A stretch of DNA of 64,000 bases from Antedon mediterranea (Eukaryota; Echinodermata; Crinoidea; Comatulida; Antedonidae), in NCBI RefSeq assembly GCF_964355755.1, contig NC_092675.1:4808312-4872311 (forward strand). Direction: 5' to 3'. Positions 1 to 63,272 of this stretch are shown piece after piece (position 1 is the first letter of the stretch; every line of letters begins with the position of its first letter). Made by a program: the position numbers and the translations under genes. Under the pieces are notes generated by a model that had not been told where the DNA came from, searched no databases, and saw only the letters and a program-made list of their open reading frames with translations.

Positions 1-2325
1 ATTGATTTTGGTGAAGGCTATCTCACCACTAATCAACCATCCTTCGATGCAGTCGTCCATGCGTGGTTGATAGGCGTTGTAAAGTTGTTCATAGGATGCA
101 AGTGAACCTAAGTTAATGGTACACGTACTGGATGCTACTTCGTAAGCAGCATTAGTTGAACTTGAATAAATACCATCTGAAAAGAAAAAGTCTAGGATTG
201 ATAGATAAACTGCACTTATAATTTGCATTCCGAAATATTGAATAGTATGACAGATCATTATAAGCAATATCTTTTGAAAAAAAATACTACTTAATTCACA
301 GTTTTTAGAAAAATAATATCAAATCTAAAGGTCAGAATACATGTGTAATGTCCAGTTTTATCCATAGTAGTTTGTTCGTAAGTACAAGGATGGGGGCTTA
401 AATATAGTGTATTTGTGTGCGATTCTCTTGAATAAATATTTGTTTCGATTTCTTAGTCGAACAGTTAAGATTATTTATTGCAATTATATACGATATTTGA
501 TAACGGCTAATGACAATCATTCGATACAGAGTTTCCTTAAAGCGAAACATACCATCCCAAAATAACGCTTATTTATTTTTACATATTGCTCTAAAATAAT
601 TTATGGGAACTTAGTGTAACCAGCAGATGACATCATAGGATGTTGTTATTTTGCTGTAGTTGGTGTTGTCTTTGTTGGAATCATGTTAACAATTAAAATT
701 GAAAACAAATAATAAAGTCTAGCTCTTTTTGTATATGGAAACTGGAACTATAAATAAAGTGACATGGATATTTTTGAAACAGAAACGCATACAACCTTAT
801 AATTCGAATCCAACATAATAGTTTTTTTTGTACCGATATTAGAAATAGCACAAAAAGTTTCGAAACTGTTCTAAGAGTTCTTGGTTTGATTTATAAACAG
901 TTTTCATTTCATTTCATTATATTCGGTCTATTTTAGTATATACATTTGTAATAAATTACCATTCCTAACACAGTATCATAGTGTCTACATGAACATTCTA
1001 GAATAAGATGTTTTGATTTAAGAAACCATGTATAATTAATAAGAACAATCAGGAACATTCCAGAAGTGCTATTAATAGAAACTGTAATCCCACAGAATAA
1101 GAAGTATAAAGAACGATCTAGAAGGATAGGAACGTCTTGTATATAAAGGGATGTAAAACTATATTGTAAGGTTGTTGGATATTTGATTGTAAAAGTTATT
1201 GTGAAGCTGTTGTTTAAAGTGCTTACTGGATTGTTGAAAGTTGAAGTTGATTGAAATTAAAGCTTTGTTTTTTTAGTAGTTATTTTACAACTTTGTGGAT
1301 TTTGTGTGTAGGCCCTATACTTTTATGTCACAAGGGAGTTCCTAAAGTATTTTCAACCGCTCGGAAACATACGTAAAGGGAGTTCGTGACAACATTAAAA
1401 AAAAACTGAAATTAGGGAGACCAGGGTCAACCTAAGTGAACTTCATCACTGTAGTTGAGCCGGTTGACTCAACCCCAAAGTCAGTTTACACATAAAAGAC
1501 ACAAAATACATCAAAATTGTTAATCAAATTAGATCTAAGCATTTGGCTTAATGTTTTCGTTATTTATTTACTGTTATATTCTTTGTTAACAAAATTTCAT
1601 TTCGGAGAAATATGTTGTATAAACGAAAAATGTATAAACGAAGATACGAATACATACAGATATTTGTATATTATATTTTTTTAATAACCATATTGATTTA
1701 TAAAAGTAAGTTTAGGTAAGCCAGTAAACCTTATTTGTGGAAATAATTATAGTTGTTGATAAAGTTAAGAACATTGAAAGCGCTATATATATTATTTACA
1801 AACACTTTACTATAATATCCCTGTAACCTTTTATGGAAAAACAATTATATACTTACGAGTCTTAAAGCTTTCATCCAATACCTATACACAAAAAATAATA
1901 ATGCCGCATTAAAATAGATCTTTATACTGTTGACTGTCTAAATTTCTAGCGGCTCATTAATTTTATATTTAATTTTGATCATGATATCTGGGTCAGGAAT
2001 AAGTAATAGACGTTTAAAAAATTAATACGATACCTTCTCTATATATTCAAACGGTTCTTGTTGAAAATCGTCTGTAGGCCTAGATGCTTCGTCTTTTACA
2101 TTTTTGTTGAGTTGACACAAACGATCCTGCTTACTGTAGTTAACAGACCAACAGTAAACTTTCCTTGAACAAGCCAACAAACATCCAGCACGATCGATGT
2201 TAATTAAGAAGCTGGTAACTCCAGCCCAGAAGAGAACGTTGTGAAATCACTGTATATAATTGAGAACTCGCAAAAGTAGATTCACCGCAGAGTAGAACCG
2301 AAAAAAAGAGCACGGTGAAATACAT
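1..2325 (-). pseudogene. PAN + Link-domain secreted protein gene, copy A (cut by window edge, frameshifted)
   Basis: Three exons can be placed by comparison with copies B-D. The first (2034-2325) starts at the ATG at 2323-2325 and codes a hydrophobic signal peptide and a PAN/apple-like domain. The micro-exon is 1857-1881 (25 nt, TAG acceptor, GTAAGT donor). The start of the Link exon is 1-176, with its acceptor at 177-178; it holds the first half of Link domain 1 including the CIEGWL motif, and the rest lies outside the window. The first exon carries a tandem TTAA duplication near 2201-2208 that the other copies lack. It shifts the frame and gives a stop immediately after the LLN codons, before the PAN cysteines. 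The same exon has a TAGGCC insertion at 2075-2082, which is in frame. The Link part is still open, so decay may be recent, or the 4-bp change could be a sequencing error. The call as a gene copy is firm; calling it a pseudogene rests on one small indel. Confidence 0.75.
177..1856. other. Intron 2 of copy A
   Basis: AT-rich sequence between the micro-exon and the Link exon of copy A. I see no gene or clear repeat here. It is longer than the matching intron in copies B-D, so it probably holds an unrecognised insertion. Confidence 0.5.
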
Positions 2326-3571: not shown

Positions 3572-4017
3572 TAACCTAATTTTGTCTTTATATGTTAATA
3601 ATGAATATCTACCAAAAGGTCTCACAACGCTTACAAAATCAAAAAGGGGATTCAAACTGTTTCAACGTAGACGAATTACGTATACAGTAAGTGCTCTACG
3701 TAATAATATGTATAACGTTGAATTATTTCTAAATAATGTAAAGATGAAATAAAAATGATACATATGACATGATGTCCACATTTGAAATCAATTGCAAGTG
3801 TATCAAAATAATCTATCATAATACTAAACATATTTCTGACAAATGTTGATTAATTATGATTAAACACACCAACATTTTAGCGAATTAACAACATAAATTA
3901 CTAATACCATGCATTCTTTGCTTTTCACTGTTTAAATCATTATCATTCAATTCACAAAATTTCGTTTCATCTCATTAATTAGGCCTACTAATGGATTTAA
4001 AATGCGTAATCTCATTT

Positions 4018-6994
4018 TTAAAGATTAGTGAGATCTTGAATGTAGCAAAAACCATCATATGTCGAATCAAAACTTTTAAATCCCCAACTAATAATTCCAA
4101 GACCATTTCCGCAATTACCTCTAGCATACGTTATAGGGTAAATAACCTCTCCACTTTCGACCCAGCCCGCGTTACAGCAATCAAAACCAGCTATTTGTGC
4201 CGCTTGTAGTTGCGCTCGTGTTGCTAGTGCTCCTCCAGTGTATGCAGAGCATCTATTCTTTGCATTATTGTACGTTAGCTGGTATCTTTCAGTTCCGCGT
4301 AAGGCCACCACACGATGAGAGGGAAATGGATCTGGAAACGTAATAGTTTGGTTTGGTAAAGGTATATAACACATGGCGAAATACCTTTTTGATTGGGCGT
4401 ATAACTTAATGTGACCACCTGTTGGATGAAGCCAAAATTCCGATGGAATATTGCCTGTGCAAGAGTTCCCTCCCAATCCCTTCAAATACCATCCCTTTGT
4501 ACAAAGATCAACACCTAGTGAGTATGATGCATTATACACCTCAAAAGGAGTCGCCAGTCGACCACCAAAGAGGGTACTGCATCTTGCCTCTGAATCATTG
4601 GCGTTCAGTTTATCTGAATTTAAACCGGTCAGCCTTATAATTCGCTGGGTTTTTGGAATATAATCAAATAAACCTAATCGTTGATTATATTCCCTGTAAC
4701 AATAATAGCCACTTTGATATGCCTTGTCTGGGAACACATTACTTCGTTGATCTGGTAAATTCAATGTGCATTTGTCTCCGCCGTTTTCGGTGAAGGCTAT
4801 CTCACCACTAATCAGCCATCCTTCGATGCAGTTTTCCATGCGTGGTTGATAGGCGTTGTAAAGTTGCTCATACGATGCAAGCGAACCTAAGTTATTGGTA
4901 CACCTACTGGAGGCTAGGTCGTAAGCCGTATTTGTGTTAGTTGGAATAAAATGTATACCATCTAAAAAAGAAGATCTTGGTTTGTATACATCATCACACA
5001 TTTGAAGATTATCTAAGATTATAGTAATATTCACGTTTGTTGTGCTAAAGTATATGTTTAAAATTATTGGTATGTAACTATAGGCCTAAAACATGATATT
5101 CAGTTATTATGACTGGAGTTGGCACGTTATATACACATTAATATTCCAGACACTTAATGAAATAAGTAAGTAAAATAAATATATTGGAAGATGAAGAAAA
5201 CTACGATGACCTGTAAGTGTCACTACAACTTTAAAAAATATCACGGCAATTTACAAAAAAGCGGCAATTAAAAAAAAAGCCACGGCAATAAAAAAAACAA
5301 ACCCCACGGAAATTTAACAAAAATACCACGGCAAATGGTAATTCACTTCTGCCGTGGCATTATGTAATTTGCTGTGGTGTTTTATTTTTAATTTGCCGTG
5401 ACGTTTTATTTCAAAATTGCCATGGGATTTTTTTTAATTGCTGTAGCTTTAAAAAAGAATTGTGGTGGTTTTTTTGCTGTAGTTTTCCGTTATATTTTTT
5501 AATAGTTGCTGTGACACTTACAGGCCACCGTAGAAAACAACCCAGGCCATAAGATTTTTCAATGGAAGAAAAATAAAAACGAATTATGTCTGTTATTAAG
5601 TTTTTAATTTCTCATTATTGGCAGAAATATTTGTTGCTAAATATATTGATTAATTCAAATATGTAGGCCTATCATACATTAATTATTCAGGGACTAGTTT
5701 GTTCTAAAATGTCTGTAGCCTGGTAATTAAGTTTATCAAACAGAAATTATTATACTCACGATTCTTAAAACTTTCGTCCAATATCTAAAATAAAGCATTA
5801 AAAACAACTTTATACACTGAATTAATGGCATAAAACATTTTTTAAAGTAAAGACTAATTTTATCCAATATAATGGAATTATTAGCTGCTTAAAAAAAACA
5901 CGTCAAATTTTAACTGAACATACTAGATGCGTTGAGGAGCCTTTTATTCCCTTTGCATTCAAAATAATTTTCTCTGAGAAGAGAGGTTGTAGAAATGTAT
6001 ATGATGCTCTGTTAACTTGACCAATGTTAATTTTAAATCAAGATCGATGTGGTGTTCAACATTAAATATTGACTGTTCGCTTGATTTCTGGAAAACTACA
6101 TCGTATGTCAACTTTAAATGTACCACTGATACAAGGTGGTTCCAATATAGGTTGGTAAATAGAACTCTGAGTACAAACACTTTTTTGTACATGATTGGTC
6201 GTTCAGACCATGGAACTATAATAGTGCCATGTTCAGACTATGAGGTTTGTGATTTCAGCCATAAAGAAAAAGAAACACCGATACACTTGTTTTGTGAATG
6301 TAACATTATTTGTACCTTTTGGGTGAATTTGAAAATATGGATTCATTTTTGGATTTCAGAACATTTTTATTTTATTTTAATTTTTATTAAATTTTATATA
6401 TACAAAGGAAACATGTGTAATAGGAACCCAAATGTAACTGAGTTGCAAAGGGAACTTAAAGCATATAATAAAGGAGCTTGGAACAATTTGCCATTTTTTT
6501 TGGGAAACCAAGAAGAATTTTATAGAAAGTGGTCTGGACTAAGTAATTTGTTTTAATATGTTTTCTCCTCAAGTATTTAATGGATGTTGTGTAATGTAAT
6601 TGTTAAAAATATGTATCAAAAGAAAACATTGAATAAAGTCTCTGAAAAGGAAAAAAAAAGAAGAAATAATAAAAGTAATACGAAAAGTTATTAACTGCGG
6701 TAGGCCTACCTTTTCAATATATTCAAACAGAACTTCTTGTTGAAAATCTTCTGTAGATGCTTCGCCTTGTACATTTTTATTGATTTGACACAAACGATCC
6801 TGCTTACTGTAGTTAACAGACCAACAGTAAACTTTCCTGGAACAAGCCAAGAGACATCCAGCACGATCGATATTAAGAATCTGGTAACTCCAGCCCAGAA
6901 GAGAGCGTTGTGAAACCACTGTATATAGATGAGAACTTGCCAAAGCAGCCTCAATACAGAGAAAAACGGGGGGAAATAGCACGATAAAATACAT
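4018..6994 (-). CDS. Secreted PAN + triple Link-domain protein, copy B
   Basis: Exons: 6710-6994 (ATG at 6992-6994, signal peptide and PAN), 5760-5784 (25-nt micro-exon), 4018-4961 (three Link domains and stop). Phases join correctly (0, then 1) and the product is about 417 residues. The N-terminus is a hydrophobic leader ending near ALASS. The PAN-like domain has the CLLAC...YC...LC cysteine pattern. The three Link modules each keep four cysteines; the clearest is the third, with GGALATRAQLQAA, CCNAGW, a YPI motif, CGN and DGFCY. Link domains bind hyaluronan or other glycosaminoglycans, and PAN domains bind proteins or carbohydrates, so an extracellular glycan-binding role is likely but inferred. 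The C-terminal tail (IQDLTNL) differs from copies C and D. The donor of exon 1 overlaps a TAGGCCTA octamer at 6701-6708. A LINE fragment sits in intron 1. The upstream in-frame ATG at 5034 is intronic and was not used, because the acceptor at 4962-4963 matches all other copies. Confidence 0.85.
5201..5533. mobile_element. Foldback MITE with repeated CCACGGCAA words
   Basis: The two ends are inverted repeats (CTACGATGACCTGTAAGTG at the left; CTACGGTGGCCTGTAAGTG in reverse complement at the right). The whole element folds on a centre near 5365. Each arm holds several CACGGCAA-like words spaced by A-rich runs, so the element is a long imperfect hairpin built of short tandem units. AAAA flanks both ends and may be a target duplication. 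It lies in intron 2 of copy B. Confidence 0.75.
5940..6658 (+). mobile_element. 5'-truncated Tx1/L1-like LINE 3' end
   Basis: An open frame at 6017-6556 matches the C-terminal region of Tx1/L1-type reverse transcriptases: a W-F-Q-Y-R-L motif, then a zinc-knuckle-like C...C...H-LFCEC stretch followed by FW, then an NPNVTELQRELKAYNKGAW-type tail near the end. A GAATAAA signal and an A-rich tail close the element at about 6658. It is antisense to copy B and lies in intron 1, about 50 bp from its first exon. No full-length open frame, so it is dead. Confidence 0.65.
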
Positions 6995-7601
6995 AATGTT
7001 TATTCTCCTTCTGAAATAAGGTTAATTTGGCGCAGTGTTTGGTTTAAAAAATGTGTATATTTGATATAATCAAAATGAATCTGCAGTAAAATCACCATTA
7101 TTGATAATAGTCTAAACTTTAATGATTCCACTAGCCAATATTTTTAATAACGATATAATGAATCCTATCAGGTATAGCGTGTTGCTGATTTCTTCCAGGT
7201 TTGTATTATTTACGCTAAAGTTGTTATTGTAATGTAAATTAAACTTAATAATATTTTGTTTGTTCATAATTTTCAGATATAATGACCTTTAAAAAATTAG
7301 AAAAGCTAGTCATCCATATTAAATTCACGGATTATAAAACAAACACAATAATAATATAATAATTAAAGAAATACTGTATAATTGGTTATTTTTCAGAAGG
7401 TTACGAATGAAACCCAAATACATCAATATTGTTGTTGCTACTTCAGAGCCTGCACTATTAGCACATGATGTTGCTTCAGGTAGATTGGATGGCCGCCGTC
7501 ATAGTAACTAAACATTAAACGTGCAGTTCGATCCACGCTTTTGTAATTAGATTGTTGTAGCAACCCACGGATCTAATAACCAATCACTCATGTGACTATT
7601 A
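6995..7601. other. 5' flank of copy B
   Basis: Non-coding. About 7470-7560 contains a block beginning near GATGTTGCTTCAGGTAGATT that recurs upstream of other copies (see findings). The promoter of copy B should be in this segment; no TATA box could be assigned with confidence. Confidence 0.4.
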
Positions 7602-7952
7602 AAGATGTATTGTCCCCCTGGAAAAATAATGTTTAACACAATTTTGGTTAAATATGCCAATTTAATGTAACATAATAGTTATCCACTTTGACCAAAAATT
7701 GGATCGAAGAAAAAATGCATTTACCTGAAATTAAAATGTAATTTAAAGCAAAAAATGGTAAAATTGGCTGCCAGCCAATGTGTTTTTGGTTGAATTTAAC
7801 CATTTATTTTGTCATTTTATAAGTGAAAACATTATTTTTTTACATTTTTTTTTCTACGGAAATGATTAACTTTATTAAAACTACAAAATAACATATTTAA
7901 AGTCTGATTTAATTAATCTTCATTTTTCATGTTTTTGGGGACAATACATCTT
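7602..7952. mobile_element. MITE family 1 (AAGATGTATTGTCCCC ends), copy 1
   Basis: 351-bp element with inverted ends AAGATGTATTGTCCCC / GGGGACAATACATCTT flanked by TA on both sides. The duplicated block has an empty site at about 22975-22993 with a single TA, which shows the insertion and its TA target duplication directly. No coding capacity. Confidence 0.88.
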
Positions 7953-8720
7953 TATTGTAAGACTAAACCAAATAAACCATTTCTTGCTTGCCAAAAAAAA
8001 AAAAAAAAAAATGATTGAGATAAGCTGTATTATTTTAACAAACCATATTGTATAATTCCTTTCAAACGTATTGTCATGTTTATATTAAAATAATGCTAAT
8101 AATAATTATAGACCTTCAATTTAACTATGGTAATCTTTTCCTATACAAAAAGTAATTAAAGAATAGAAAGAACAGTTTTCAAAAACATGCACAACAAATG
8201 TAGTAGAAATAGTACAGAATAATATGTATAATTACTGTATTTATATGAAATAATAAACAAATATTAGTCATCACCCAATTCTGCAACTAACATTTATAGA
8301 AATACCATAAATAGGCCTATTTGTATATCTAGATTTAGTCAGTTAAGATGTATCTATTTGACAATTGTAATATTCGGTTGGTAACATATACAAATAATGA
8401 ATGTTTATCAGTGCAACGGTACAAATATTTTCATGAGGTGAAAGATGGCCTGTACATGAATACTAATAATACTAAATATGTGTAATTTTATACATGATTG
8501 GTAAACTAAAGAATTAACTATATAAAATACATAAGAACAACCCTTTTATATAAGTATAGTAGGCTATGTTCGTACATTCACAAAGAGGGAATTTGTTCTG
8601 ACATGCCAAAATGTTAAGTGTGACGGGACTAATATAGAAAATGGCAATTGTTGTTACAAAACATTTTGCCACTAAACATCAGTAGAGCTTCGGCCTTGAT
8701 TTGTTCGAAGTTTCCACTTG
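7953..8720. other. Intergenic DNA between copies B and C
   Basis: AT-rich and non-coding. It aligns with 22990-23750, one clear difference being a TAGGCCTA at 8312-8319 where the partner has a single TA. A poly-A run is at about 7994-8011. This is the 3' flank of copy C. Confidence 0.5.
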
Positions 8721-10402
8721 CTACAATAATATGTAGCAATAACCATCGTATGTACTATCAAGACTCTTGAATCCCCAACTATTAATTCCATTATTCCCGC
8801 AACCTGGTCTAGCATGCGTTATAGGGTAAATAACCTCTCTACTTTCGACCCAGCCCGCGTTACAGCAATCATAACCAGCTATTTGTGCCGCTTGTAGTTG
8901 TGCTCGTGTTGCTAGTGCTCCTCCAGTGTAAGCAGAGCATCTATCCTTTGCATCCTGGTACGTAAGTTGGTATCTTTCAGTTCCACGCACATTCATCACT
9001 CGATGTGAGGGAAATGGATCTGGAAACGTGATGTTCTGGTTTGGTAAAGGAATATAACACATGGCGAAATATTCTATTGATGTGTCGTATAGCTTAATGT
9101 AGTTACCAGTTGGATAAAGCCAAAAATCCGATGGAATATTACCTGTGCAAGAATTTCCTCTCAATTCATTCAAATACCATCCATTTGTACAAAGATCAAC
9201 ACCTAGTGAGTATGATGCGCTATACACCTCAAAAGGAGTCGCCAGCCGACCACCAAAGAGGGTACTGCATCTAGTTTCAGCTTCATTAGCGTTCAGTTTA
9301 TCCAAATTTAAACCTGTTAGCCTTATAATTCGTTGAATTGTCGGAATATAATCAAACAAACCTAATGGTTGATTATATCCTCTGTAACAATAATAGCCAC
9401 TTTCATATGTTTTGTCTGGAAAAACATTACTTCGTTGATCTGGAGAATTCAATGTGCATTTGTCTCCGTTGATTTCGGTGAAGGCTATCTCACCACTAAT
9501 CAGCCATCCTTCGATGCAGTTGTCCATACGTGGTTGATATGCGTTGTAAAGTTGTTCATACGATGCGAGCGAACCTAAGTTAATGGTACATGTACTGGAT
9601 GCTACATCGTAAGTAGCATTAGTTGAACTAGAATAAATACCATCTGAAAAATACGAAAGAACCGCTCATCAACAAATATCTCATTGATGAGAGTTATGTA
9701 TTGTGTTTATTCTATAAAAATGATTTTGTGTCTTCTGTGTCGTAACACAGTTATATGGCTACCACAGTATTGCTTTTTAAAATACAAAAGTATTTAGAAA
9801 CAGCACATTATGGATGTAATTTTTTAAATTAGAGATTATTTTAAATATCTAGGCATTATTCTACAGAAATCATTAGGTCTATACTCACGATTCTTTAAAC
9901 TTTTATCCAATACCTATATAAGAGATAATACCACAATTAAAAGACATATTTTACACAATGACATTGAATATTATAATTGTAAAGTTATAATATTAACTAC
10001 CGTATGCCCGCATGTACCTACTTATACTTTGACGTAAAGAATGAAAAAATATATAATAGGCCCTATAGGGTCTTAGGGTTTAAAATGCAAAAGGAAAAGT
10101 CGAATAAGTACCTTCTCTATGTATACAAATGAAAGTTCTTGTTGAAAATCTTCTGTAGATGCTCTGTCTTGTACATTTTTGTTGAGTTGACACAAACGAT
10201 CCTGCTTACTGTAGTTAACAGACCAACAGTAAACTTTCCTGGAACAAGCCAACAAACATCCAGCACGATCGATGTTAAAAAGCTGGTAACTCCAGCCCAG
10301 AAGAAACCGTTGTGAAATAACTGTATATAGGCCTAATTGAGAACTTGTAAAAGCAGTCTCACTACAGAGTACGATTAAACAAAAGAATACGGGGAAATAC
10401 AT
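8721..10402 (-). CDS. Secreted PAN + triple Link-domain protein, copy C
   Basis: Exons: 10112-10402 (signal peptide and PAN), 9889-9913 (25-nt micro-exon), 8721-9643 (three Link domains). Phases are consistent and the product is about 412 residues. The first exon is six bases longer than expected because a TAGGCC unit at 10328-10335 adds Gly-Leu just after the mature N-terminal SSQL. Link 1 has CIEGWLISGEIAF, Link 2 has GGRLATPFEV and CTNGW, and Link 3 has GGALATRAQLQAAQIAGYD followed by CCNAGW, then YPI and CGN; each has the four expected cysteines. The protein ends CYILL. It is closest to copy D: introns and both flanks align. It lies 1.7 kb downstream of copy B in the same orientation. The 5' flank beyond 10403 is nearly the same as that of D, so the two probably share promoter sequence. 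Function is inferred from the domains only. Confidence 0.87.
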
Positions 10403-11785: not shown

Positions 11786-12199
11786 TAACCATGAAACACG
11801 ATTTCTTTAATAATCCTCGCTGCAGGTGTAGTTTATTATTGTTTCTTTTGTTTTCAACACTAATCGATTTCACGTTCAATGTTATCGCATGAAAGTAACA
11901 CTATCATTAACTTAAATTATTTTCACGAAAACACATTTATATAGAAGCATACGCTATACTCTCTGAAATTATTATATTACTTGGCATAATGCCACGTTAT
12001 CATCCTGTTTTAATACCTATATACCAACAAATCATCTCTATTTATGAAAATTGATATATTGGTGACGTTACAAAAATATATTAAATCTCGAGTGATCTGT
12101 ATGTTCAATATTGGCCAAAATAGTTAAATACCGAATCACTGTCACAAAACTAGGGTTCATTATGACTAAAAAAATGTTGTGTTGCATCGCACATCGACT

Positions 12200-12234
12200 A
12201 TCAATTCAATTCAATTCAATTCAATTCAATTCAA
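12200..12234. repeat. (ATTCA)n microsatellite
   Basis: About seven tandem ATTCA units directly before the LINE fragment, possibly where the 5'-truncated element integrated. Confidence 0.9.
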
Positions 12235-12239
12235 CGTAA

Positions 12240-12892
12240 ACATTTATTTTCTTTCTTTCAACCAATAACAATAAAACAAATGAATAAGGTATTGAAAAAG
12301 AAAGTACGAGTTTTAAATAATACATTTAACCATTGTGCAACAGAGCAGATTATACATGCTTTTGTTACCATTCGGCTTGATATGGGAAATTCCCTGCTGT
12401 ATGGTCTGCCAAAGAAGCAGTTGCGGACTCTCCAGAAGGTGCAAAATTGGGCAGCTCGCTTGGTGATGTGTGCCAAGAAGTATGATCATGTCACAGCATT
12501 GTTCAAAGAGTTAAATTGGCTACCCATGGAGTCACGTGTTAAATTTAAGATCCTGCTGCTGGTGTTCCGATGCCTAAATAGTTGCGCTCCAAAATATCTC
12601 TCAGAATTGTTGACAGTCAAGAAGGGAAAGCGAGAACTAAGATCTAGTCATCAGGTGCTACTGGACATTCCAAGGAGCAAACATAGTTGGGGAGATCGGA
12701 CTTTCAGTGTTGCTGGACCTAGGCTCTGGAACCACCTACCCTTAAACATTAAACACACATCATTATTGAGTCACTTTAAGTCACTACTCAAAACTCACCT
12801 TTTCTGATTTTTTCTACAGCGCCATGAGCAATGAATGTGGGAATGGCCCTATATAAATCGAACGATTGATTGATTGATTGATTGATTGATTT

Positions 12893-12895: not shown

Positions 12896-12928
<33 letters not shown>
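12896..12928. repeat. (AT)n microsatellite
   Basis: Pure AT run at the left edge of the inverted tRNA-unit array; a longer TA run bounds the right edge. Confidence 0.95.
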
Positions 12929-12932
<4 letters not shown>

Positions 12933-13040
12933 CATACTGTAAATTATAGAAACAGTGCTCATATTCGGAACATGATCTCATAATCGCATCGAGCATAGCT
13001 CATTGGCGAAAGTTCCGTATTTTTTAGTTGTATGAAAAAA

Positions 13041-13112
13041 TGTCTCTGGCTGGATTCGAACCTGCAACCTCTCGCTTACAGGGCGAGTATCATACCACTA
13101 GACCACAGAGCC
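13041..13112 (-). tRNA. tRNA-Thr(TGT)-like, unit 1
   Basis: 72 nt. The reverse complement has acceptor arms pairing 6 of 7, a perfect 5-bp anticodon stem (CTCGC/GCGAG) with loop CCTGTAA giving anticodon TGT, and a T-loop GTTCGAATC with one mismatch in its stem. Position 33 is C instead of T. Box A and box B are present. The mismatches and repeated context suggest a tRNA-derived repeat more than a working tRNA. Confidence 0.5.
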
Positions 13113-48800: not shown

Positions 48801-51800
48801 CCTATACAACTATCAAAATAATATATTTATGATTTTAATATCGATTTACAGTATGTTTATTGTAATTCATATATTTTTTTCAGGATTTTGTTTTATTCAT
48901 TTAAAATTTAAGCTGTATATAAATCAAAATAAAGAGTACATTATGTTATTTGTACGACAGCAAGAATCTATTTTAATGGATTTGATGTCAGTTATAGGGA
49001 TATTTTCAACATGTTCTTGAACGCTCTCCATGATTAATATCCTATTTTCAACAGGAATTATTAATGCATCATTAATCATCTTGACAGGTTTTAGTTTAAT
49101 GTGATTTTACTGGCAGCCACCCAATGTTAAGCTACACAGTATTACAATGTTATTCCTTATAAATCCAGTATATTATAGTAAATTACCAATTAATGTACTA
49201 TTACAGTCCATCGGTTATACTGTATGTTGTTTGCTTGTTTGTAAACCAACTATTTTTAATACGGGTACAGTAATAATAAAAATGTATTTATTGTTGTTCA
49301 CACACTTTAGTTTTTATTTAGTTTAGTATTTATTATCAGTAAAGTGTTGAGACGAAGAAGTATTTGTTTGTTAATTGCAAATGTTTGCATACACTTTTCT
49401 AAAAATGAAAATCTATCATCCCAGCATTGTAAACTACCATCCAATGGAAAACACTAAAACAAAATATTCCCATCATCTTTTTTATCTTATAACGAAGACA
49501 CATGCATGATTCTGTTTTACTGTATTATTAATTTATGATTAAAAATATTAATGCATTTTAGCATGGAATAAAGGCATGGCATTTTGTTAGTCAATCTTTA
49601 GCAATACAGACTTACTTTAGCTTTTGTTAGGCCTCAAGTCACAAAGTGAAGAGGTGTGATTTGAGTGTTTAAATAAACAATACTTTTATACACTTAGTGA
49701 TTTTGTTGTAAAAAAAATAGTTTCCCACCCACCACTGAGTGACAAGCGAGTAAATACAGATCCATGCTAAAAACCTTTTCAAGAAATTTTAAAATTTAGT
49801 GAAAGCAACTGTTAAAGTACAAACTACTCTAGTTTCAAGCTTCTGTGATTAGATAACTGTTCTAAAATCCTTATCATTTAGAGCTTGCTATTATAAAGAG
49901 CAAATTAAGTTGACATTTTTCTGCACTCGATCAGTAACTTGGAGCCAGAGCAAATTTGTCTTCCGTAGTTCAACACAACTATCCCATCCATCCAATCTAA
50001 ATCCTTAATATCAGTGACAGAAATTGCCTCTACAAAATTCATTGCATCCTCTATTATGAACTTTAACCTGTATGACATCTCTTATCATGCAATAGGCCTA
50101 ATGTTTTATTTTATTTTTAGGATTATATATGTGTTTTTGTTTTGTAAATTACTTCTAGTCGTAATTCATGTTTTCGCCATTGTTAATTATCATCCTATTT
50201 TTAGTAAATTTATTAATTATGAAAAACTATTTTGAAAACAAGCTAAATGTCATTGAAAAAATATATATTGATCCAGGCAGGAAGCATTTAGAGAACTTTT
50301 ATCTGTATTTGTATCTTCTTTAATCCTTTTACACTAGGTCAGATGTGAAGTTCATAAAGTTCATTATGAAAAAGTTCATTTTCTTGACTTACATTTATTC
50401 TTTAGAATTTATTAATTTTTGTTCATAATCCATGTTGTGATGATGAATATTAAGTATTGGGCCGAGTGACAAATTGATAAAATCAACTGTTGAAACATAT
50501 GGGTTGTTTTTGCCATTACCAAAAATATTACCTATTTACTGGTAGCAATCCCACATATATAATATAATTAGGTTTGATCTCACTACACCATACTTGGGTT
50601 TATTATGGTCAACTCTTATTCTTCCCCAGTAGGTCTGGTTTTTTTTCCACTCTATTTTGAGTCACTTTTTTTTTGCCATTTTCCAAAAATATTACCTATT
50701 TAACTAGTAGCAATCCCACATTTATAATATAAGTAGGTTTGATCTCACTACACCATACTTGGGTTTATTATGTCAACTCTTATTCTTCCCCAGTAGGTCT
50801 GTTTTTTTCACTCTATTTTGAGTCATCTTGTTTTACATTATTATTTATTTCAGCATGATATCCCTGGTAACTAAGTAGTATTTCATATATTTATTTTGAT
50901 GATCTCCACATTGCAGGTCTTAGCATGACGAATAGTATGTGTAAGAGTGGAATAAGCTGTGCTGTGGTAAGGGATGATGGATTGTTGCAGACTGCCTTTG
51001 TAATAGCACATGAAGTAGGCCATATGTGAGTAAGCTATGAATCTACAGTAGGCCTATAGTAGAACCCTTCAAACCCAGGAGTGGAGTTGTGGCTTGGTGG
51101 TTATGATGCTTGGCTACCACTCTAAGGGTCCTGGGTTCAAGTCCCGTCACATGTCAGGATTTTTATAAGGATCAAATCACTCCACTCCCAAAGACTTGTA
51201 ATAAAACTTTGTTTATGTAGAGCATCTTGTGTATATGTTTGTCTTGTGAACCTCTGAGGGTCCCTAATGATCAGCAATAGCTGGATGGATCACCCTCATT
51301 AAATATGGATAAAAAAAACAACAACAAAAAACAAAAAAACAAACAAACAACAGTGTTCCTGAAGAGGGGTGTTCCTGAACAGGGGTGTTCCTGAATAGAG
51401 GTGTCCCCTAAATAGGGGCATCTCAAGGGAGGGGTTCCTGAATAGGGGTATCCCTTGAATAGGGGTGTTCCTGAATAGGGGTGTCCCCTGAATAGGGGCA
51501 TCTCAAGGGAGGGGTTCCTGAATAGGGGTGTCCCTTGAATAGGGGTGTTCCTGAATAGGGGTGTCCCCTGAATAGGGGTGTCCCTTGAATAGGGGTGTTC
51601 CTGAATAGGGGCATCCCAAAAAGAGGCTTCTACTATACTTCAGTTATATACAGATATTAATATGGATTCAATTTAGCAATGAGTTGGCTAACCTGAAATT
51701 AATAGTAGTTATGCTTGGTAGATGTATAAAAACTTTTTTTTATAGCAGATTGAGATTTGTTTTTTGTCTAAACCCACTTTTCTCCATAATTAGAGCTGTA

Positions 51801-54800: not shown

Positions 54801-57800
54801 TTTTCCTAAATGACATTAATAATATTAGGATGCATATGTTTCCTTTAGTTTCTAGCACATACTTTTTTTTTATTCTTTCCTCTAAATGTTTCTATCTCTT
54901 TCTCCATCTGTCGGTCTAATTCAAGATTTAGTAAGATGTCCTTATAAGCAAATGTTTACCAAGGATGTTTACTTTTCAAAAATAATTCACTATTTAAAGT
55001 TTTATTAATTGTCTAATAAAATCAAATACACATTTTCTAAATCGTTCATAATATTTATCATAAATAAATTACACTTATTATAGAAGGAAGTGTAGATAAA
55101 CTGGTTTAATGTAATGTATATAAAACCTTGTATTTAAGTTCAAGTTCATGTTTTCTCTATGGTTTAACCACTGATCATAGAGAAGGCCTCTTCCCATGAT
55201 ACATCCATTTAATGCCTCATTATTGGATAATGTGATATACATGTTTTTTACTACTTATTACAGGACTATTAGGTTCAGATTATTGCAAGGACATATCAAT
55301 TATATAAATTTAAAACCATATTCAACTATTTTCAGGGAAGAGTTAAATTATAATTTGTAATTTAACTCTTTCCTGAAAAGACAAACAAGTTTTATTAATT
55401 GTCTAATAAAATCAAATACACATTTTCTAAGTAGTTTTAGGAATCATTTAGGAATCATTAACAATTCACCGAACATTATTAATAAAACAATACATAGAAA
55501 CATGAAAATCACATTGAAAAAAAAGTTGAAAAAAAGAACGACGAATCCCAACACCAGTTTTGACCTATGACACATACAAATCTTGCTTGGATTAAATCTC
55601 TGGATATATAAGATGATTCAGCGGATTATTAGTTGAACCTGGCAACCATCAATTTTATCCCATCCCTTAGGGTATAGTAATTGCACAGTAGTCAGACTTT
55701 TGATTGAATTATTAGTCTTCATTTCTGATATTGTTTTACCTTTGCCATACAATATTAAGTTTACATGCATTGATACAATTAAAATAACATTATATAGTGA
55801 CACAACTTCCAAAATAAATATAAAAGTACTGTATTTCCAACATAAATCCTGTATTTCCTTTTGTTTACTTTGTAATTTAAATTGATTTATTTATAGTAAT
55901 TCTTCTAGAAAAGACAAAATTCTGCTAGAAGACCAAATCAGTTTTCTTTTAATATAACAAACTGTAAAATACTGTTTTTAATTATATATTTATTGACAAA
56001 ATTACTATATTTCATGCTTAAAATATTATTTTCAGTTTATTATACAATTAAGAAGTGTTTATATACTTTTTAAAACGTATTTACTTCCTCAGCTTCCTTC
56101 CATAGTTATTAATTATACTAAAAAACTTAAATGTAAATTCATATTTTCTATTTTCTAGTGGTGTATAAATGGATCATGCATTCATATAAATTATCAGGAT
56201 GGTGGATGGAGTAAGTGGACTGCATGGACAGTGTGCTCTAGAGTTTGTGGTATTGGTGTCAGCAAGCGACGCAGATATTGTGATAAGCCCAGGTAAGTGT
56301 AATTGTACGGAATAAAAGAGTTGTATCCAGTAAGATAGAGGAGTTAAACATGTGGATAGGAAGAAAATACAAAAAAACATGAATCAAGCTATTAGCAGCG
56401 GTGCCTGCCATAAGCCTTGCTTTTTTGCAGGCTAGGCCTAGTTGTATTCACCCAAAAAGGTGTAAGTGAAAATAGTTCATAGACCCATGTTATAAAACAA
56501 ATAATGCACAAGTCTAAATTTTGTGCATTAGTGGAGTGGAGATGCGCACTCTCGGGTATTCAGAATGTCGTGCATGTCGCACCCTTGTATACTTATTTGT
56601 ATACTATGAAAAATTAGCATGATAATCATCTCACTTGTATGATTTTGTAACTTTTCAGAGCTCAGTTTGGTGGCAAAAAATGTGAAGGAAAATCATTTGA
56701 ATATAAATTGTGCAATACACAGGTAAGATGATTAAGCCTCTGAAATTCTCAAATGAAATTGTTAATGTCATAGTCATGTAAAATAATCCTTCAACTATGC
56801 AGATGCATTTTAATGACTTCTGTTTCTCTGTCGTGTTTTGTGTATGATTTATAACAGATTGCCATGACCGTAATATACACACATACTACTGTTCAGGAGG
56901 CTACAGTATATGCTTTCTACATTTATTGACCTAATATTGGCAATTCATGGTATTATTGCGCAGTATGAAACGATCACGCAGTCTCTTTTTAAGGTCTACA
57001 AGAAAAATTCTTCTTGCTCACTTATAAATGACACATCATCAAACTAATGGAGACTCCTCCCAAAGCGTCATAATGACACAGTCCTCACCCATGATGAAGA
57101 GCAGCATGTCTATAATTCATTATTTCCATCCAGTAATTCAATTGAGTCAAATGTCTGGAATAAACTATACACCATATAAATAGTATAATAATAAAGTATA
57201 GAACATTTTTACTAAAATTATTAAAACCCAGTCGCACAATAGATTTTAAAGCTATGTATTTTTCCTACCACAACTGCATAGTATGGTGCCATTAATGGGA
57301 CTTGGATTATTGCAAGTCCTTGTGTCTATGATAATAACTCTTTCCAAGGAAGCAATTATTTAATTTATTTGCCTCAGACATCATTCAATAAACTGATGTC
57401 TTTTTCTGGCAGACAAAAATCCGTTTTAATTGGGAAACAAGCTTGTTTTGGAGTATGACGTTAGCAAGTTTGTGCTTTTACATTCATTTTGTATTATGTT
57501 GAAATACAATATAATTTAATATGCTCTATAATAAATACCAACCATATACACACTGTAGGATTCCTTTGTACAGAACAAATGCAAACATATATCGTATTTC
57601 TATCCAGTATTTGATCATAATTGGTCATTTTCGGTCAAGCCACACAAACCACTCATGGCTATTGATCAGTGTGTCTTTATTATAATATAATCAACAATTA
57701 CTATTAATAAATGCAGAAAAAAAGAAGAAATTGAGGGTGAAATGAAAATGGGAATATCTGAGAAGGAAGTGAGTGGACTATATGGATTAAAATGGGAAAG

Positions 57801-60800
57801 ATTTAAGGAAAAGTGGATGATAATAGTGAAATACCATGGGATATATGTAGAATTAGATAATCCTACTAGGGCTACTTTCATATTATAACATAAATAACAA
57901 AGATGTTATTTATACAGTATGGAAGACTACATTATAAAAGAGCTAGAAATCGTTGTTTTAGCTCTACTATTAAAATAAAAAATATTTGGTCACAAAAATA
58001 AAAATAAAACAATTAGACAGAAAATATTAAAGCAAAACAGAAAAATGAAACAGAAAAGACAGAAAACATAAGATAGAAAATGTGGAAACAAAAACTCAGA
58101 AAATGTTAAAACAAGACTCCGAAACCCCCCCCCTCCCAAAAAAAAAACAAAATGTGAAAACAAAAAGTCAATGTTAAAAGTGTAAATTTCAATATATTGC
58201 ACTTTATATACACAGAAAACATGCTTTAATATAGTATGATACAGACTATTTACTCACCAGCACCTCATTGTTAAAACTTCAGTGATATGATAATTTAATT
58301 AAATAATATTACACTTTATTTCTCATGCTTTTAATCTAATTATGAATGTTTCTTTCTCAATTCAGATCATTTAACGCCGGAATGACTTTGTACTTTTATT
58401 CTTTGTTCTACAGGATTGTGGAAATCCAATTCAAGACCCCAGAGCTGACAAATGTAAGGACAACTTGTCCAACTGGCTACATGAAGGGGAACCACACTCT
58501 TGGGTTCCTTCAGAACTTCTTAATAGTAGGTACTCTCCACGTTTATGGTTTGGAATGTTGAGAGGTTTCATTCTTGGGTGTTGTTTTTAGAATGGTACTG
58601 TAGTAGCAATATAGCTTGGTGATTAAATTACATGCTTGCTAATTCCAGGGTGCAAAGTTCAAATCCTGTCTGGCACATTATCAGGATTTGTTTTCATGAC
58701 CAAAACTGTGCCACTACCTAAGAAACATGGGGTGGGGAAGAAGTAATTTAAAATGGATTATGTCATACATGACATGTGTTTGATATAAATTTGTTTATAC
58801 TGGTTTCACCTGATATGTGTCATATGTAGTCTGGACAGGTGTGTATCACCAGCACATGTCCCTTATGTCATTAATTTATGATGGGTTACAAACAAAGGTG
58901 TCATAACTAGGGCAACATGTGATTCTGAAATTCATTTTCTGAGGTTTTTTTTAGAAAATTCAATCTTGACATTTATAACACAACAGTCAATCATGTTAAT
59001 CATGTTGTTACATTTCATATGTATATGAAAAGTTTAGTTTAGGCATTAGTTTCACAAGTTATTTTTTATGTATAGATTGCCTGATAAAGTAATTAATTAA
59101 TTAATTATTAATAATAATAATTAATATTTTCATTCATAGACATATTAAAGGGACCATGTCAAAATTATTCTACTGCAGTTACTGCAGTAACTACATCTAT
59201 ATATATTTTGTTTACGATTTACCCTGTTTGCAAAGTTTTTTTGGGTATACACACTGCAGTAACTGAGGACGATCGAAGTATTTTGATCGAAACGCCGAAA
59301 AACAGTTCTTTTCATAACTAAATATACGTAGTGACCGCAAACTTAAAATCAAAATTCAGTAGAATCATTTTGAAATGATCCCTAATATATAAACACATAG
59401 TTAAAAGTTTCTCATATACACACATTATTCAAAGAAGACTGTAGCAGTTGATTTAATCATACTAGTCAATAATAAAGAAAGCATTAATAAGCTAGCTCGT
59501 AAGGTTACTGTACTATTTTGTTCAGTGTAATGATGATTTTGCTATCTCGCTTTTAGTACATGTATTCTTATTATGATATCTGACACTGATTAACATAGCT
59601 GTCTTGCATTTAGGAAGTCTTTCGTGTAAGTTATCCTGTGTGTCACTCAACACAAAATCAGTGGTGGTCACTGATCAGAACGTCATTGATGGTGTTGCAT
59701 GCTCGTATGAAAACCCACATGGTATTTGCATTGAAGGGAGATGTGTGGTGAGTAAACAATTTTAACTGCTGTTTGAATTTAAAGGAATATTATTAAATTA
59801 TCATCTCTCTATTGCCGAGTGGGATTGCTACAAAAAAATGTTCACACACTAAGATTGAGTCATGGATTGCATCCGACAAATACATGCAATTGCTGAAAAA
59901 AAAAACCAAAATGCTGTAGGTAATAATGGCAGGATATCAATTGAGATAGGACTACGTCCAAAACAATTAAACAAAATTCTAAATCAAGACTTAATAACAT
60001 AAACAGCCAGGGGATGACAAGAGAAATGACAAGCTTTCTTAACTTAAAAAATAGATGTTGTTTAGATTTGAAAATAGGCCTACATATATCTATCTATATT
60101 TTACGTTCATCAATAGTCAAATTTTGTTTTAAGCATTGTAATATTTCAAATTGTTATTTTATACACAATCTGAAAATTCATAAACAGTGAAACATCTTTT
60201 GAAACCGTAATGAAATTAAGGATAGAGATTTTTCAGAGTGTTCATGGTTTTGAAAGAATCAACTGAAAATACTTTTCCATGAGTTGAAACAACAGTCACT
60301 GTACTTTGGTAGATATCATGTAGTCCATCACATGGAAATTACATTTCTCATAGTTAACATGCCTCAAATAATTTTGGAAGTGTAATTCAATACCTATGGG
60401 AATGGCCAATTTATATCAAATATGTTTTGTGATTTGAGGCATGTCTTGAAATTCTAGATGGGGTTAGGTTATGTATGTTATGTAGACATGTTAAATGTCA
60501 ATAAATATTTCTGGATTACTTTTACAGTATTGATTAATGTAAAAGTTGTACAAAGATAGTGTTTCTACCTGATACTTTATTAACTGTTTTATAATTGTTG
60601 AAAAAGAGATGTTTTATTTGTAGTTAGTATAAATAAAAAAAAAATGAAAACATAATAACTCAATCAATATAAGACAGGATTTTATTGTATTTTTGATTAA
60701 GAGAATTGGCTGTGACAAGGTTTTAGGATCGAAAGTCGAGATTGACAGATGTGGTGTATGTGGAGGGAATAATTCAACATGCAGAGAAATCGATTCTTCA

Positions 60801-63272
60801 AAAAGAAGACGTTTAAAGAGAAGTAAGTGTATTAACAAATTGTTTTGTGCACTCATAGAGATCACTATAATATCTCTATGGTGCACTCCATGTGCCAACA
60901 ATGTTGATTTGTCATGATGTGGCCATGACGATCGTCATCCTATGAGCAGGTTATGTCATGTAATTCACAAGTTACGCATGCTAGCAAGTTTAGACGTGTT
61001 TCTTAACTTTATTGCATCAACAACAAAACGTTGACAGACAATAAACAATGACGCATCAATGTGAATGTCCTAAATCACAAATCGAAAGCAAGATTTTATT
61101 TTTTGTAAAGAATAAAATTAACATTTAATAAAGAATCACATAAAATAGGTTTAAAATTATTCACAGATTGTTTTGTAGGCCTATGTACAATAACAATGAA
61201 AACTGTTTCACTTGTTGACACCCACAATAATGCAATGCACAATATCTGCTTTTGGTTATAATAAATAAGAATACAAGACTTGAGATGTAAAGTTATTCTT
61301 GATGTTTTAGTTTCAGCCTCTTGCCCAAATTAGGTCAAACTTGACATGTGTTCATATGTACATGTCTAGACCATATATAGGAAATGATAGTAAATGTTAA
61401 ATCTCCTATGGGTATCGTTTTGCATCTAATCATGTTGTAAAATGTTTTTTTACTTATAAAATGGCATCAAAGTTTCTTATTTTTGTGTTATTGCACACTA
61501 GCATCATGAAAGTACTTTTTAATGGTGTCTATTATTATATTTATTGCCTCGGAATGATACCTAAAAAACTGAATGCTCATTAATGCAATGTATTAATAGA
61601 AACAAATTATTTTCTGTTCCATGATCCCTGATCTTTTCTTTAATTTATTTTGTGAAAATGTGCATTTAATATAATAGTTCAGTTCCTTAACATTATGCAA
61701 TATCACATATTTATTATGGAGTCATGGCGAAGAGCCCTGGTTTAGCACTTCTAAGAGACCCTCCAATACTGGGTAGTTGCATTAAACTGCTCATGCGCTG
61801 GGGTCCCTTAAGCTCTGGGCCCCTGGTTTAGCACTCCTAAGAGACCCTCCAATACTGGGTAGTTGCATTAAACTGCTCATGCGCTGGGGTCCCTTAAGCT
61901 CTGTGCCCCTGGTTTAGCACTCCTAAGAGACCCTCCAACACTGGGTAGTTGCATTAAACTGCTCATGCGCTGGGGTCCCTTAAGCTCTGGGCCCCTGGTT
62001 TAGCACTCCTAAGAGACCCTCCAATACTGGGTAGTTGCATTAAACTGCTCATGCTCTGGGGTCCCTTAAGCTCTGGTCCCCCTTAAGCTCTGTGCCCCTG
62101 GTTTAGCACTCCTAAGAGACCCTCCAACACTGGTTAGTTGCATTGAACTGCTCATGCTCTGGGCCCCCTTAAGCTCTGGGCCCCTAGTTTAGCACTTCTA
62201 AGGGGCCCTCCAACACTGGTTAGTTGCATTGAACTGCTCTGGGGTTCCTTCTTAAGCTCTGGGCCCCTGAGTTTAGCCAGTGAGCAATCATAGTTGTTAC
62301 ACCACTGTCTGGAGTTGAATCATAACACATGAATGATGCATCAGTGTAATATGAAGCTAGGCATAATATAGCCTACAGTTCACCAAAGATCTTCATAGCA
62401 CCATATAATAAAAAAAAAAATAGTAGATACGAGGCACCCCATTTATTGTTAAAGCTTGTTATAAATAATAAACATGATATACAATTTGTCTAGTAACAGA
62501 AGTGGATTCTTGATTTTATTACAGCATATCAAGTGGCACTTAAAATACCAATAGGAGCATATGACATTAGAGTACAAGAGGTCACTAAAAGCAATCATTT
62601 TTTAGGTAAATTAAGTTTTTTTACTCTCTATCTCTTAACATAATTGTTTGCTACTGCATTAAAAATAAATCATTACCGAAACAGTATACAGTAATTAAAA
62701 ATAAGATAAATGGTTTTGTCATAACATATTATTAGAATGTTATTGTATTAAGTCTTTATCTTGATATTATCTTAACCGTAGATTAGAGGGAGCTATTCAT
62801 TTTCCAATACTAAATCATGATGATGATACCTCCTTGATCTTAAATGTATAAAGAAAGTCATTGAAAGTTTTATAAAGTGATGTAACCAAATTTGTCAGTA
62901 GTTTCTCAAAATGTTTTTGCTATGTTTCTATGTTTATATCTCTGAGTGCATGCTCAGGGGGGGGGGGGGGAAATATGGTGTGGGAATTATACTCAGATTG
63001 CATTTACAATATATTTACAAAATTCTAGATTTAGCTTTAATTATAGTGTGAGATTATACTTGAGCTATACAGTATTAAATATCAATCATATAGTTTTCTT
63101 TATTTTAGCCCTAAAAGATGATTTACATAGACGGTATATATTAAACAGTAAGAGCACACAGGGGCCATCATGTGAATTTGTCTATCATAGAGTTAGCTTT
63201 GTGTACATTAATGAAGATGGGCTTGAGATACTTAAAGCACGAGGTCCAATGCGGTCCAACCTAACAGTATTG
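39846..63272 (+). CDS. ADAMTS-family secreted zinc metalloprotease (5' exon and 3' end unresolved)
   Basis: Seventeen phase-consistent exons: 39846-39894, 40255-40643, 42278-42392, 43278-43474, 44380-44463, 47728-47866, 50917-51025, 51960-52100, 53442-53553, 53818-53937, 56159-56292, 56659-56722, 58414-58525, 59614-59747, 60702-60822, 62525-62605, 63109-63272 (755 codons). In order: prodomain (CEHYEHITPYR, a FGEQF motif, a CFYQG cysteine-switch-like stretch); proprotein convertase site RSKR in exon 4, followed by the catalytic start ERPYFVETLVAVD; zinc site HEVGHMLGMIHD, split by an intron after HEVGHM; Met-turn VMSS; disintegrin-like LPGELYSRDQQC; central thrombospondin-1 repeat GGWSKWTAWTVCSRVCGIGV; Cys-rich region with CKLSCVSLN, CIEGRCV and DRCGVCGG; spacer with IPIGAYDI and RGPMRSNLTVL. 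The signal-peptide exon upstream was not found. After 63272 a GTAAGA donor suggests more exons; read-through would instead stop at 63341. The subfamily is not assigned, and the catalytic domain is divergent. Confidence 0.93.
40708..41093. mobile_element. MITE family 5, diverged copy
   Basis: Resembles 42441-42815 at both ends (GTTCTGTTGGCAGC...AATAACTGATTAATAA at the left; AATGGCTTTTCAGTGTTATGCAGC at the right) and in middle words. Old and diverged; in an ADAMTS intron. Confidence 0.45.
42441..42815. mobile_element. MITE family 5
   Basis: Left end GGGTCCTGTTTCTGCTG and right end (reverse complement) AGGTCTGTTTCTGCTGC are imperfect inverted repeats, with TA next to each end. About 375 bp, no coding capacity, in an ADAMTS intron. 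Confidence 0.65.
43925..44126. mobile_element. MITE family 4 (TCTTTCACAC ends)
   Basis: Inverted ends AACCTTCTTTCACAC and (reverse complement) AAGGGTCTTTCACAC with CCGGCA in both arms, flanked by TA. Internal CAAATCGAA / TTCGATTTG words also face each other, so it folds back. In the intron before ADAMTS exon 44380-44463. Confidence 0.75.
44464..47727. other. Large ADAMTS intron
   Basis: 3.3 kb between catalytic-domain exons. Short open frames (for example about 44507-44824) have no recognised similarity and low coding character. No repeat could be classified. Confidence 0.4.
48108..48422 (+). mobile_element. tRNA-derived SINE, family 4
   Basis: Head with GTGGCACAGTGTGTTGG and box B GGGTTCAAATCC, then a body with GTGTCCTTAGACAAGACACT, a core found in many animal SINEs, and a tail of (AAT)n. 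In the intron after ADAMTS exon 47728-47866. Confidence 0.7.
50500..50840. repeat. Two tandem copies of a unit of about 170 bp
   Basis: The stretch CCAAAAATATTACCTATTTA ... TTTTGAGTCA occurs twice in a row (about 50518-50673 and 50684-50832) with small differences. In the intron before the zinc-site exon. Confidence 0.88.
51078..51352 (+). mobile_element. tRNA-derived SINE, family 1, copy 2
   Basis: Same head, body and A-rich tail as 3328-3571, nearly identical apart from a few substitutions and an indel near TTTTATAAGGATC. It splits the intron between the two halves of the zinc-binding motif of the ADAMTS gene. Confidence 0.88.
51353..51620. repeat. 16-bp minisatellite, about 16 copies
   Basis: Unit GGGGTGTTCCTGAATA with variants GGGGTGTCCCTTGAATA and GGGGTGTCCCCTGAATA. 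Directly follows the SINE tail. Minus-strand open frames here (PLFRGHPYSGT repeats) are by-products. Confidence 0.92.
52478..52665. repeat. Dispersed repeat related to the 86-bp minisatellite
   Basis: Begins ACAGTGGCATAACACGGAGG and ends GGGTTTAGCCAGTGAGC. The same start and end words and inner GGCCCCTGGTTTAG / CCCTCCAA words occur at 61720-62310, where the inner part is amplified. Confidence 0.65.
52700..53015 (+). mobile_element. Possible Tx1/L1-like LINE C-terminal fragment
   Basis: An open frame at 52632-53012 ends with NNITIHFLIKLICILGKTFI...EGYMFYMQF and a TTCAATAAAGA signal. Its layout (hydrophobic LGK-type segment, then end of frame, then AATAAA) is like the fragment at 5940-6658. 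Weak similarity; could be chance. Confidence 0.35.
54997..55430. repeat. 44-bp direct repeat flanking a hairpin
   Basis: A 44-bp word starting AAGTTTTATTAATTGTCTAA is at 54997-55040 and, identical, at 55387-55430. Just before the second copy, 55329-55350 and 55358-55379 form a 22-bp stem with one G-U pair and a 7-nt loop. Could be a duplicated segment or a remnant element. Confidence 0.7.
58610..58880 (+). mobile_element. Diverged tRNA-derived SINE
   Basis: Head with TATAGCTTGGTGATTAAATT and box B AGTTCAAATCC, then TGGCACATTATCAGGATTTG, similar to the CACATGTCAGGATTTTT of family 1. Body differs; an older relative. Confidence 0.5.
61727..62290. repeat. 86-bp minisatellite, about 6.5 copies
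   Basis: Unit starts TTTAGCACTCCTAAGAGACC at 61741, 61827, 61913, 61999, 62102 and 62188. The spacing is 86 except one unit with a small internal duplication of CCTTAAGCTCTG. GC-richer than its surroundings. In the intron before ADAMTS exon 62525-62605. Confidence 0.92.
62957..62970. repeat. Poly-G run (14 G)
   Basis: Uninterrupted G tract in the last recognised ADAMTS intron, 140 bp before the acceptor. Confidence 0.95.

Follow-up and report, generated by a model that had tools for sequence, protein, structure and literature searches.

Why does one eight-base word, TAGGCCTA, recur so often in a stretch of DNA from the crinoid Antedon mediterranea? The stretch (hereafter the window) is 64 kb long and lies at G000:C6:4808312-4872311 (contig NC_092675.1), in an assembly of 354 Mb and 18 contigs. 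The word, hereafter the octamer, consists of GGCC between two TAs. We find that it is a 6-bp insertion which is TA-specific, recurrent, mostly independent from site to site, and located at the same TAs as CAG and CTG footprints of the Sleeping Beauty type. It is probably a scar left on excision by a cut-and-paste transposon that targets TA and has GG...CC ends.

The over-representation is real and genome-wide. The window holds 26 exact copies (the first at 2075, the last at 61176), where 0.57 are expected from base composition and 0.49 from an order-1 Markov model. This is an excess of about 53-fold, the highest ratio of all window 8-mers with at least 8 occurrences. The assembly holds 128,596 copies, about 49-fold more than the ~2,630 expected (scaled from 1.79 per 241,400 bases). 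The original prediction, made from the letters of the window, gave about 25 copies and roughly 40-fold enrichment; both hold up, and the genome-wide count that it proposed as a check is far above expectation. The reversed octamer occurs 1,587 times genome-wide, but it contains CpG and is therefore an unfair yardstick. Unless stated otherwise, context statistics below come from a 241-kb sample (the window plus 18 stretches of 10 kb; 241,400 non-N bases), which contains 23,803 TA dinucleotides and 100 octamers against 1.8 expected. Octamer counts in the individual fetched stretches range from 0 to 11 (L001 includes 2,500 N). Scaled to the genome, there are about 35 million TAs, 0.37% of which bear the octamer.

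The octamer sites in the window, given without strand, are as follows:

2075-2082: octamer, derived insertion; three window paralogs with TA
3980-3987: octamer; one paralog (22.1 kb) with TA; 4-bp gap in the left flank
5081-5088: octamer, exact word count
5664-5671: octamer, exact word count
6701-6708: octamer; three paralogs with TA; left flank aligns poorly
8312-8319: octamer; one paralog, at 23.3 kb, with TA; separate 2-bp indel nearby
10328-10335: octamer, derived insertion; five paralogs with TA
16638-16645: octamer, exact word count
30322-30329: octamer at a cluster edge, exact word count
30472-30672: cluster of octamers at 30472, 30483, 30506, 30543 and 30665, exact word count
30909-30916: octamer, exact word count
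32582-32589: octamer, exact word count
32738-32745: octamer, exact word count
38138-38145: octamer, exact word count
38567-38574: octamer at the edge of a 37-bp tandem array, derived insertion; six other units with TA; 3-bp gap in the left flank
39914-39921: octamer, exact word count
47868-47875: octamer, exact word count
50093-50100: octamer, exact word count
51049-51056: octamer, exact word count
56433-56440: octamer, exact word count
60075-60082: octamer, exact word count
61176-61183: octamer, exact word count

Empty-site queries found alignable paralogs within the window for 6 of the 26 sites (2075, 3980, 6701, 8312, 10328 and 38567), and at all six the paralogs carry a plain TA. The net change from TA to octamer is 6 bp, i.e., GGCC plus a second TA. 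With three, five and six empty copies at 2075, 10328 and 38567, respectively, the empty TA is the majority state at these polarised sites and insertion is the simplest history, so the octamer is best read there as the derived state. Sites 3980 and 8312 have one empty copy each and are therefore unpolarised, and the left flank of 6701 aligns poorly. Three of these comparisons had been made in the original prediction, and they are confirmed (2075 against three TA copies, 10328 against five and 8312 against the TA copy at 23.3 kb). Its claim of an insertion with TA duplication is likewise borne out by the window paralogs, by events in the repeat ends described below and by the TA specificity, and the octamer is not ancestral at the three polarised sites. 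A few octamers are common to repeat copies (L004/L006 and L003/L056, classed by reading the alignments), as expected for insertions that predate duplication. Since only 5 pairs among 100 octamer sites agree in at least 32 of 50 flanking bases, most octamers probably arose as separate events.

The insertion of GGCC is TA-specific. The 100 GGCC cores between TAs compare with 14 between the 15 other dinucleotides, where 16.6 are expected; AA-GGCC-AA occurs 4 times (3.3 expected) and TT-GGCC-TT 3 times (3.4 expected). Among cores of the form G(m)C(n) between TAs, written (m,n) and given as seen/expected, (2,2) dominates at 100/1.8, and its shorter relatives are in excess, with (2,1) at 33/9.8 and (1,2) at 37/9.9 (GGC and GCC together 70/19.7). 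Part of this latter excess lies in clusters, since 34 of the 70 GGC/GCC sites are within 200 bp of an octamer. Longer cores are rarer, with (2,3) and (3,2) at 5/0.3 each (GGCCC and GGGCC together 10/0.7) and (2,4) at 3/0.1. Cores at expectation are (1,1) at 53/54.1, (2,0) at 61/66.0 and (0,2) at 70/65.4, i.e., 131/131.4 for GG and CC together. CAG and CTG between TAs are also in excess, 3.8-fold (187 against 48.6 expected; CAG 94/24.2, CTG 93/24.4), and show a smaller excess between CG dinucleotides (13 and 8, against 1.2 each).

As a test bed for insertions, we used TAs within the ends of two families of miniature inverted-repeat transposable elements (MITEs), each of which has a copy in the window:

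7600-7954, forward strand: MITE family 2 copy with an intact TA in both ends; test bed, not itself inserted
31427-31587, forward strand: MITE family 1 copy with an intact TA in the right end; test bed

In family 2, the site AAGATG-TA-TTGTCCCC is intact 2,926 times genome-wide. Between AAGATGTA and TATTGTCCCC, an open search that admitted every insert of 1-30 bases with a duplicated TA gave 72 rows. By hand count these comprise 14 CAG, 14 CTG, 14 GGCC and 30 others, so that CAG, CTG and GGCC each occur at about 0.5% of sites. The others are GCC, GGCCC, GGCCTA and CAGCTG (one each) and 26 other short words or partial repeat copies. Of 16 four-base inserts at this TA, 14 are exactly GGCC. The reversed control of the pattern gave 74 matches, perhaps from another repeat, and is uninformative. 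The CAG/CTG class at the same TA is a built-in yardstick, by which the family-2 TA seems to record transposon excisions.

Sixteen octamer-bearing family-2 ends were fetched (14 exact, 2 stacked), and 14 of the 16 align to the window copy at 70-84% identity, except for one short match (L043). The octamer is in the left end of some copies and in the right end of others. The stacked scars read GGCC-GGCC (L053) and GGCC-CTG-GGCC (L054). A further family-2 end (L076) has lost one TA beside GGCC, which fits break repair. At G000:C1:791500-791534, a MITE-2-like end reads AAAGATTTA-CCCC-TATTGTCCCC, with CCCC rather than GGCC between the TAs.

In family 1, the octamer lies within 30 bp before GACAGAGCTT at 19 places genome-wide (18 of them fetched), and the reversed control gives 0. 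Seven of the 19 octamers are directly before GACAGAGCTT, all at one TA: six are clean changes from TA to TAGGCCTA, and one (L019) is stacked on TAGGCA. The seven copies differ in body and flanks. Two family-1 octamers (L011 and L021, with the same variant bases beside them) may be one event copied with the MITE. In L019 (G000:C5:24342624-24342941), the MITE-1 TA carries TAGGCATAGGCCTA, i.e., a GGCA core beside a GGCC core, the former being either a decayed or a variant scar. An open insert search at this TA gave, among 100 of 269 matches, CAG 8, CTG 6, GGCC 4, GTG 3, one each of GCC, GGG and CAT, and others; many of these 100 matches are tandem arrays, so the counts are partial.

How could an excision leave this word? 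A TA-specific transposase of Tc1/mariner-like type would insert an element with 5'-GG...CC-3' ends and duplicate the TA. On excision, two bases of each end would remain (TA-GG and CC-TA), and the break would be joined as TAGGCCTA. The joining could be achieved by filling in 2-base GG tails and then ligating them, or by annealing self-complementary 4-base GGCC tails, a palindrome that would give a uniform scar. Alternatively, 3-base GGC tails might anneal through GC. Each of the three options agrees with part of the data, but we prefer this last one less because it would predict more GGC/GCC at the family-2 TA than the single GCC seen beside 14 GGCC. Each move would leave one scar and no extra element, so scars are able to outnumber elements. 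The original prediction had proposed an excision footprint, and that part gains support from the equal counts of CAG and CTG at a TA that also carries GGCC; its GG...CC transposon was looked for and none was recognised in the 241 kb or at the junctions read, so we infer the element, its ends, the transposase and the overhang.

The event is probably of a known kind, namely a DNA-transposon-type excision footprint, and we did not find the GGCC core described. A search of open-licence papers (titles and the beginnings of abstracts) found no account of the octamer phenomenon. Tracts rich in the octamer may also be present in other marine animals. The original prediction went too far in stating that no mechanism has been described, since Tc1/mariner footprints between duplicated TAs appear in excerpts of PMC3432063 and PMC7913693. 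According to the latter excerpt, such footprints are 2-4 bp, a range that includes the 4-bp GGCC, and the octamer also matches the Tc1/mariner (IS630-like) pattern in having the TA target duplicated around the scar. The excerpt of PMC3432063 gives TAC(A/T)GTA as the typical Sleeping Beauty footprint. The octamer resembles it in having a short core between two TAs, with both classes at the same MITE-end TA, but its core is the self-complementary 4-bp GGCC rather than C(A/T)G, the CAG/CTG class is separate and the flanks differ.

Two other groups were considered and rejected. The ISL2EU group of PHIS transposons, as excerpted in PMC4482050, has inverted repeats that usually begin with GG, like the GG...CC ends proposed here, but the target that it duplicates is AT, within A|AT|T, and AT-GGCC-AT shows no excess here (3 against 3.7) while TA-GGCC-TA does (100 against 1.8). 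PIF/Harbinger transposons are described in the same excerpt as cut-and-paste elements with inverted repeats whose first base is usually A or G and a 3-bp TWA target duplication, whereas the clean events here repeat only the 2-bp TA.

The flanks help to separate the GGCC class from the CAG/CTG class. Among the half-sites of 58 unclustered octamers, 39% have G before the TA (background 18%), compared with 14% at TACAGTA and 21% at TACTGTA. CAG/CTG words are also not spatially associated with octamers (13 lie within 100 bp of one, against a random-TA mean of 15.1). The different flank preference makes a second transposase probable, and two agents are therefore likely, one for GGCC and one for CAG/CTG.

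Several observations weigh against simple transposon excision. One is that octamers cluster: 14 of 83 gaps are shorter than 100 bp, where simulation gave a mean of 5.4 and a maximum of 12 (500 runs), and among the first 100 sites of C1 the figure is 32 of 99 gaps. Another is that C, not G, precedes the TA in 50% of half-sites at 42 clustered octamers. Scattered excision alone does not explain the clustering and the C preference. The latter may reflect insertion next to older GC cores, and the clustering could be explained by local re-insertion or re-use of scar TAs. We rejected the idea that the clusters are one repeat family, as they share only low-complexity similarity with each other, apart from the two arms of an inverted repeat in L001. 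Exact tandem octamers are at expectation in the 241-kb sample (1 against 0.84), while 10 six-base gaps occur among the first 100 C1 sites, so regions differ in exact tandems. The L001 inverted repeat, at about 6450-8170 of L001 and near the end of the C1 contig (G000:C1), is long and holds 9 octamers within 1.1 kb.

The source element also escaped recognition, which counts on the same side. A search for terminal inverted repeats (TIRs) after any TA (16-base arms, at least 13 matching; window and L001-L008) revealed no TA-GG...CC-TA element in the window. A second TIR search covered the 241 kb, which is under 0.1% of the genome, with 14-base arms (at least 12 matching) starting with GG, CA, CC, AG or AC. 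Among the 14 of 32 GG-start matches listed, none is element-like; they sit in L059 tandem repeats and in the L001 palindrome. Words that recur after TAGG come mostly from local tandem arrays. A DDE_3 search of the genome gave 8 matches from 17 scored candidates, and no GG...CC ends were recognised in the 8 loci fetched. The Sleeping Beauty-like footprint class is present although the assembly has only these 8 DDE_3 matches.

Junctions between CC and MITE ends were a further place to look. The 11 rows of CC-TAGACAGAGCTT are all MITE-1 ends without an inserted element: 5 are octamers, one has TAGCCTA at the TA where these lie, 4 show CC junctions of other kinds (as judged from the letters of the rows) and one (L073) is a diverged copy. 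The 48 rows of CC-TATTGTCCCC gave no recurrent element: 13 are octamers after AAGATG, 10 are other MITE-2-like ends with stacked or altered scars (the CCCC core on C1 among them), 16 belong to a different repeat whose end is GAAAAAATTCC or AAATCC (L035-L038 were the 4 read) and 9 are others, all fetched. Of these nine, two singletons (L065 and L067) have MITE-2 at the right and unrelated, mutually different DNA at the left, one (L074) is a tandem repeat, and six (L066 and L068-L072) do not match MITE-2. L075 and L076, fetched in addition, are MITE-2 ends with altered scars. Both junction searches miss any site whose lead position is G, which is the case for 2 of 7 and 1 of 14 known scars. In a control with CTG-TATTGTCCCC (48 rows), roughly twelve rows have TTAAAGCTG, which differs from the family end by one base, and neither of the two rows fetched (L077 and L078, with a shared foreign left flank) is a family-2 end, so the power of the junction test is uncertain.

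These points favour, to a degree, an element-free process of TA micro-insertion, in which a nuclease or topoisomerase makes a staggered break, the ends are filled in, about two untemplated G are added to each 3' end and the ends are joined. Such a process would need no source element, and none was recognised in the window, the 241 kb or the junctions read. Clustering and stacking of octamers suit it, as do the G(m)C(n) cores, where (2,2) is dominant and (2,1), (1,2), (2,3) and (3,2) are in excess, as two independent G tails predict. However, tail addition also predicts wider lengths and one-sided tails, and GG and CC alone are at expectation (131 against 131.4). That 14 of 16 four-base family-2 inserts are exactly GGCC, and that classical transposon footprint words occur at the same TA, argue further against it, and we consider it unlikely. 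We rate even lower the chance that one Tc1-like transposase leaves both CAG/CTG and GGCC, via other ends or other repair: the equal numbers at the family-2 TA and the strong enrichment of both classes between TAs are in its favour, but unclustered flanks differ (G before TA for GGCC, A for CAG/CTG) and CAG/CTG words are not spatially tied to octamers (13 against 15.1).

It is very improbable that the octamer is a functional motif (e.g., a binding site) maintained or spread by selection. It is an exact palindrome, and its one-substitution neighbours are fewer than simple neutral decay predicts (115 seen, 52.5 expected, beside an excess of 98 intact copies), but clean insertions lie inside unrelated MITE copies and tandem repeats, the genome has 128,596 copies, and little flanking sequence is common to the sites (5 pairs among 100 sites). 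Least credible of all is an origin by substitution, slippage or gene conversion, or from an ancestral octamer that was then lost. The few octamers common to recent repeat copies (L004/L006, L003/L056) would suit it, but the empty TA is the majority state at the three polarised window sites, which excludes it there, at the family-2 site 2,926 intact copies stand against 14 octamers, and the insertions are exactly 6 bp in unrelated contexts. A broader proposal, which we put forward only tentatively, is that an undescribed agent specific for TA, either a lineage of transposases whose elements end in GG...CC or a palindrome-building process that needs no element, wrote the approximately 130,000 identical scars, made its scar a top octamer of the genome and seeded clusters by re-using the TAs that it created.

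The octamer's age and rate can be roughly gauged. Its one-substitution neighbours exceed expectation by 63, beside an excess of 98 intact octamers, which is below the neutral steady-state ratio of about 8/7 (our own estimate), so accumulation leans recent or the expectation is crude. Taking about 10% substitutions per lineage for family-2 copies (a rough value from pairwise identities of 70-92%), the insertion rate per TA comes to roughly 5% of that of substitution. If we assume 1e-8 substitutions per site per generation, this would be about 0.02 scars per haploid genome per generation, for which tens to hundreds of element copies would suffice if each underwent 1e-3 to 1e-4 excisions per generation (also assumed). 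A small number of elements is thus consistent with a very large number of scars.

If the octamer is an excision scar, then simply counting a word gives access, across the whole genome, to a countable record of past DNA-transposon excisions that falls into two separable classes and may persist after the elements are gone. One assembly would suffice to measure the history of excision, its target preference and its relative timing, and the GGCC class would point to a TA-targeting element with GG...CC ends. If no such element exists, there is instead a TA-specific insertion process which, at the family-2 TA, is as frequent as either Sleeping Beauty-type form.

Other features of the window include reading frames with Xlink, PAN and reprolysin-propeptide domains, which suggest an animal source. 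A search for COX1 gave no match in the assembly. The octamer at 6701-6708 seemingly lies at a splice-donor-like GT of the PAN-domain frame (the splice site being a prediction), and may be a scar that leaves the donor usable. Duplicated genes lie at 4018-5085, 8721-9665 and 23761-24702; the first frame has Xlink domains, and each of the other two, when aligned, is about 86% identical to it in DNA sequence. The duplicated blocks around these Xlink-gene copies supply paralogs for the empty-site comparison. An open frame at 12166-12807, which we take to resemble the reverse-transcriptase tail of a non-LTR (long terminal repeat) element, gave no Pfam match. Close by, at 12922-14312, units of 366 bp form an array that is both tandem and near-perfectly palindromic. 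It contains three tRNA-like genes, which score identically and lie on both strands, and a fourth tRNA-like gene lies just outside it, at 14392-14463.
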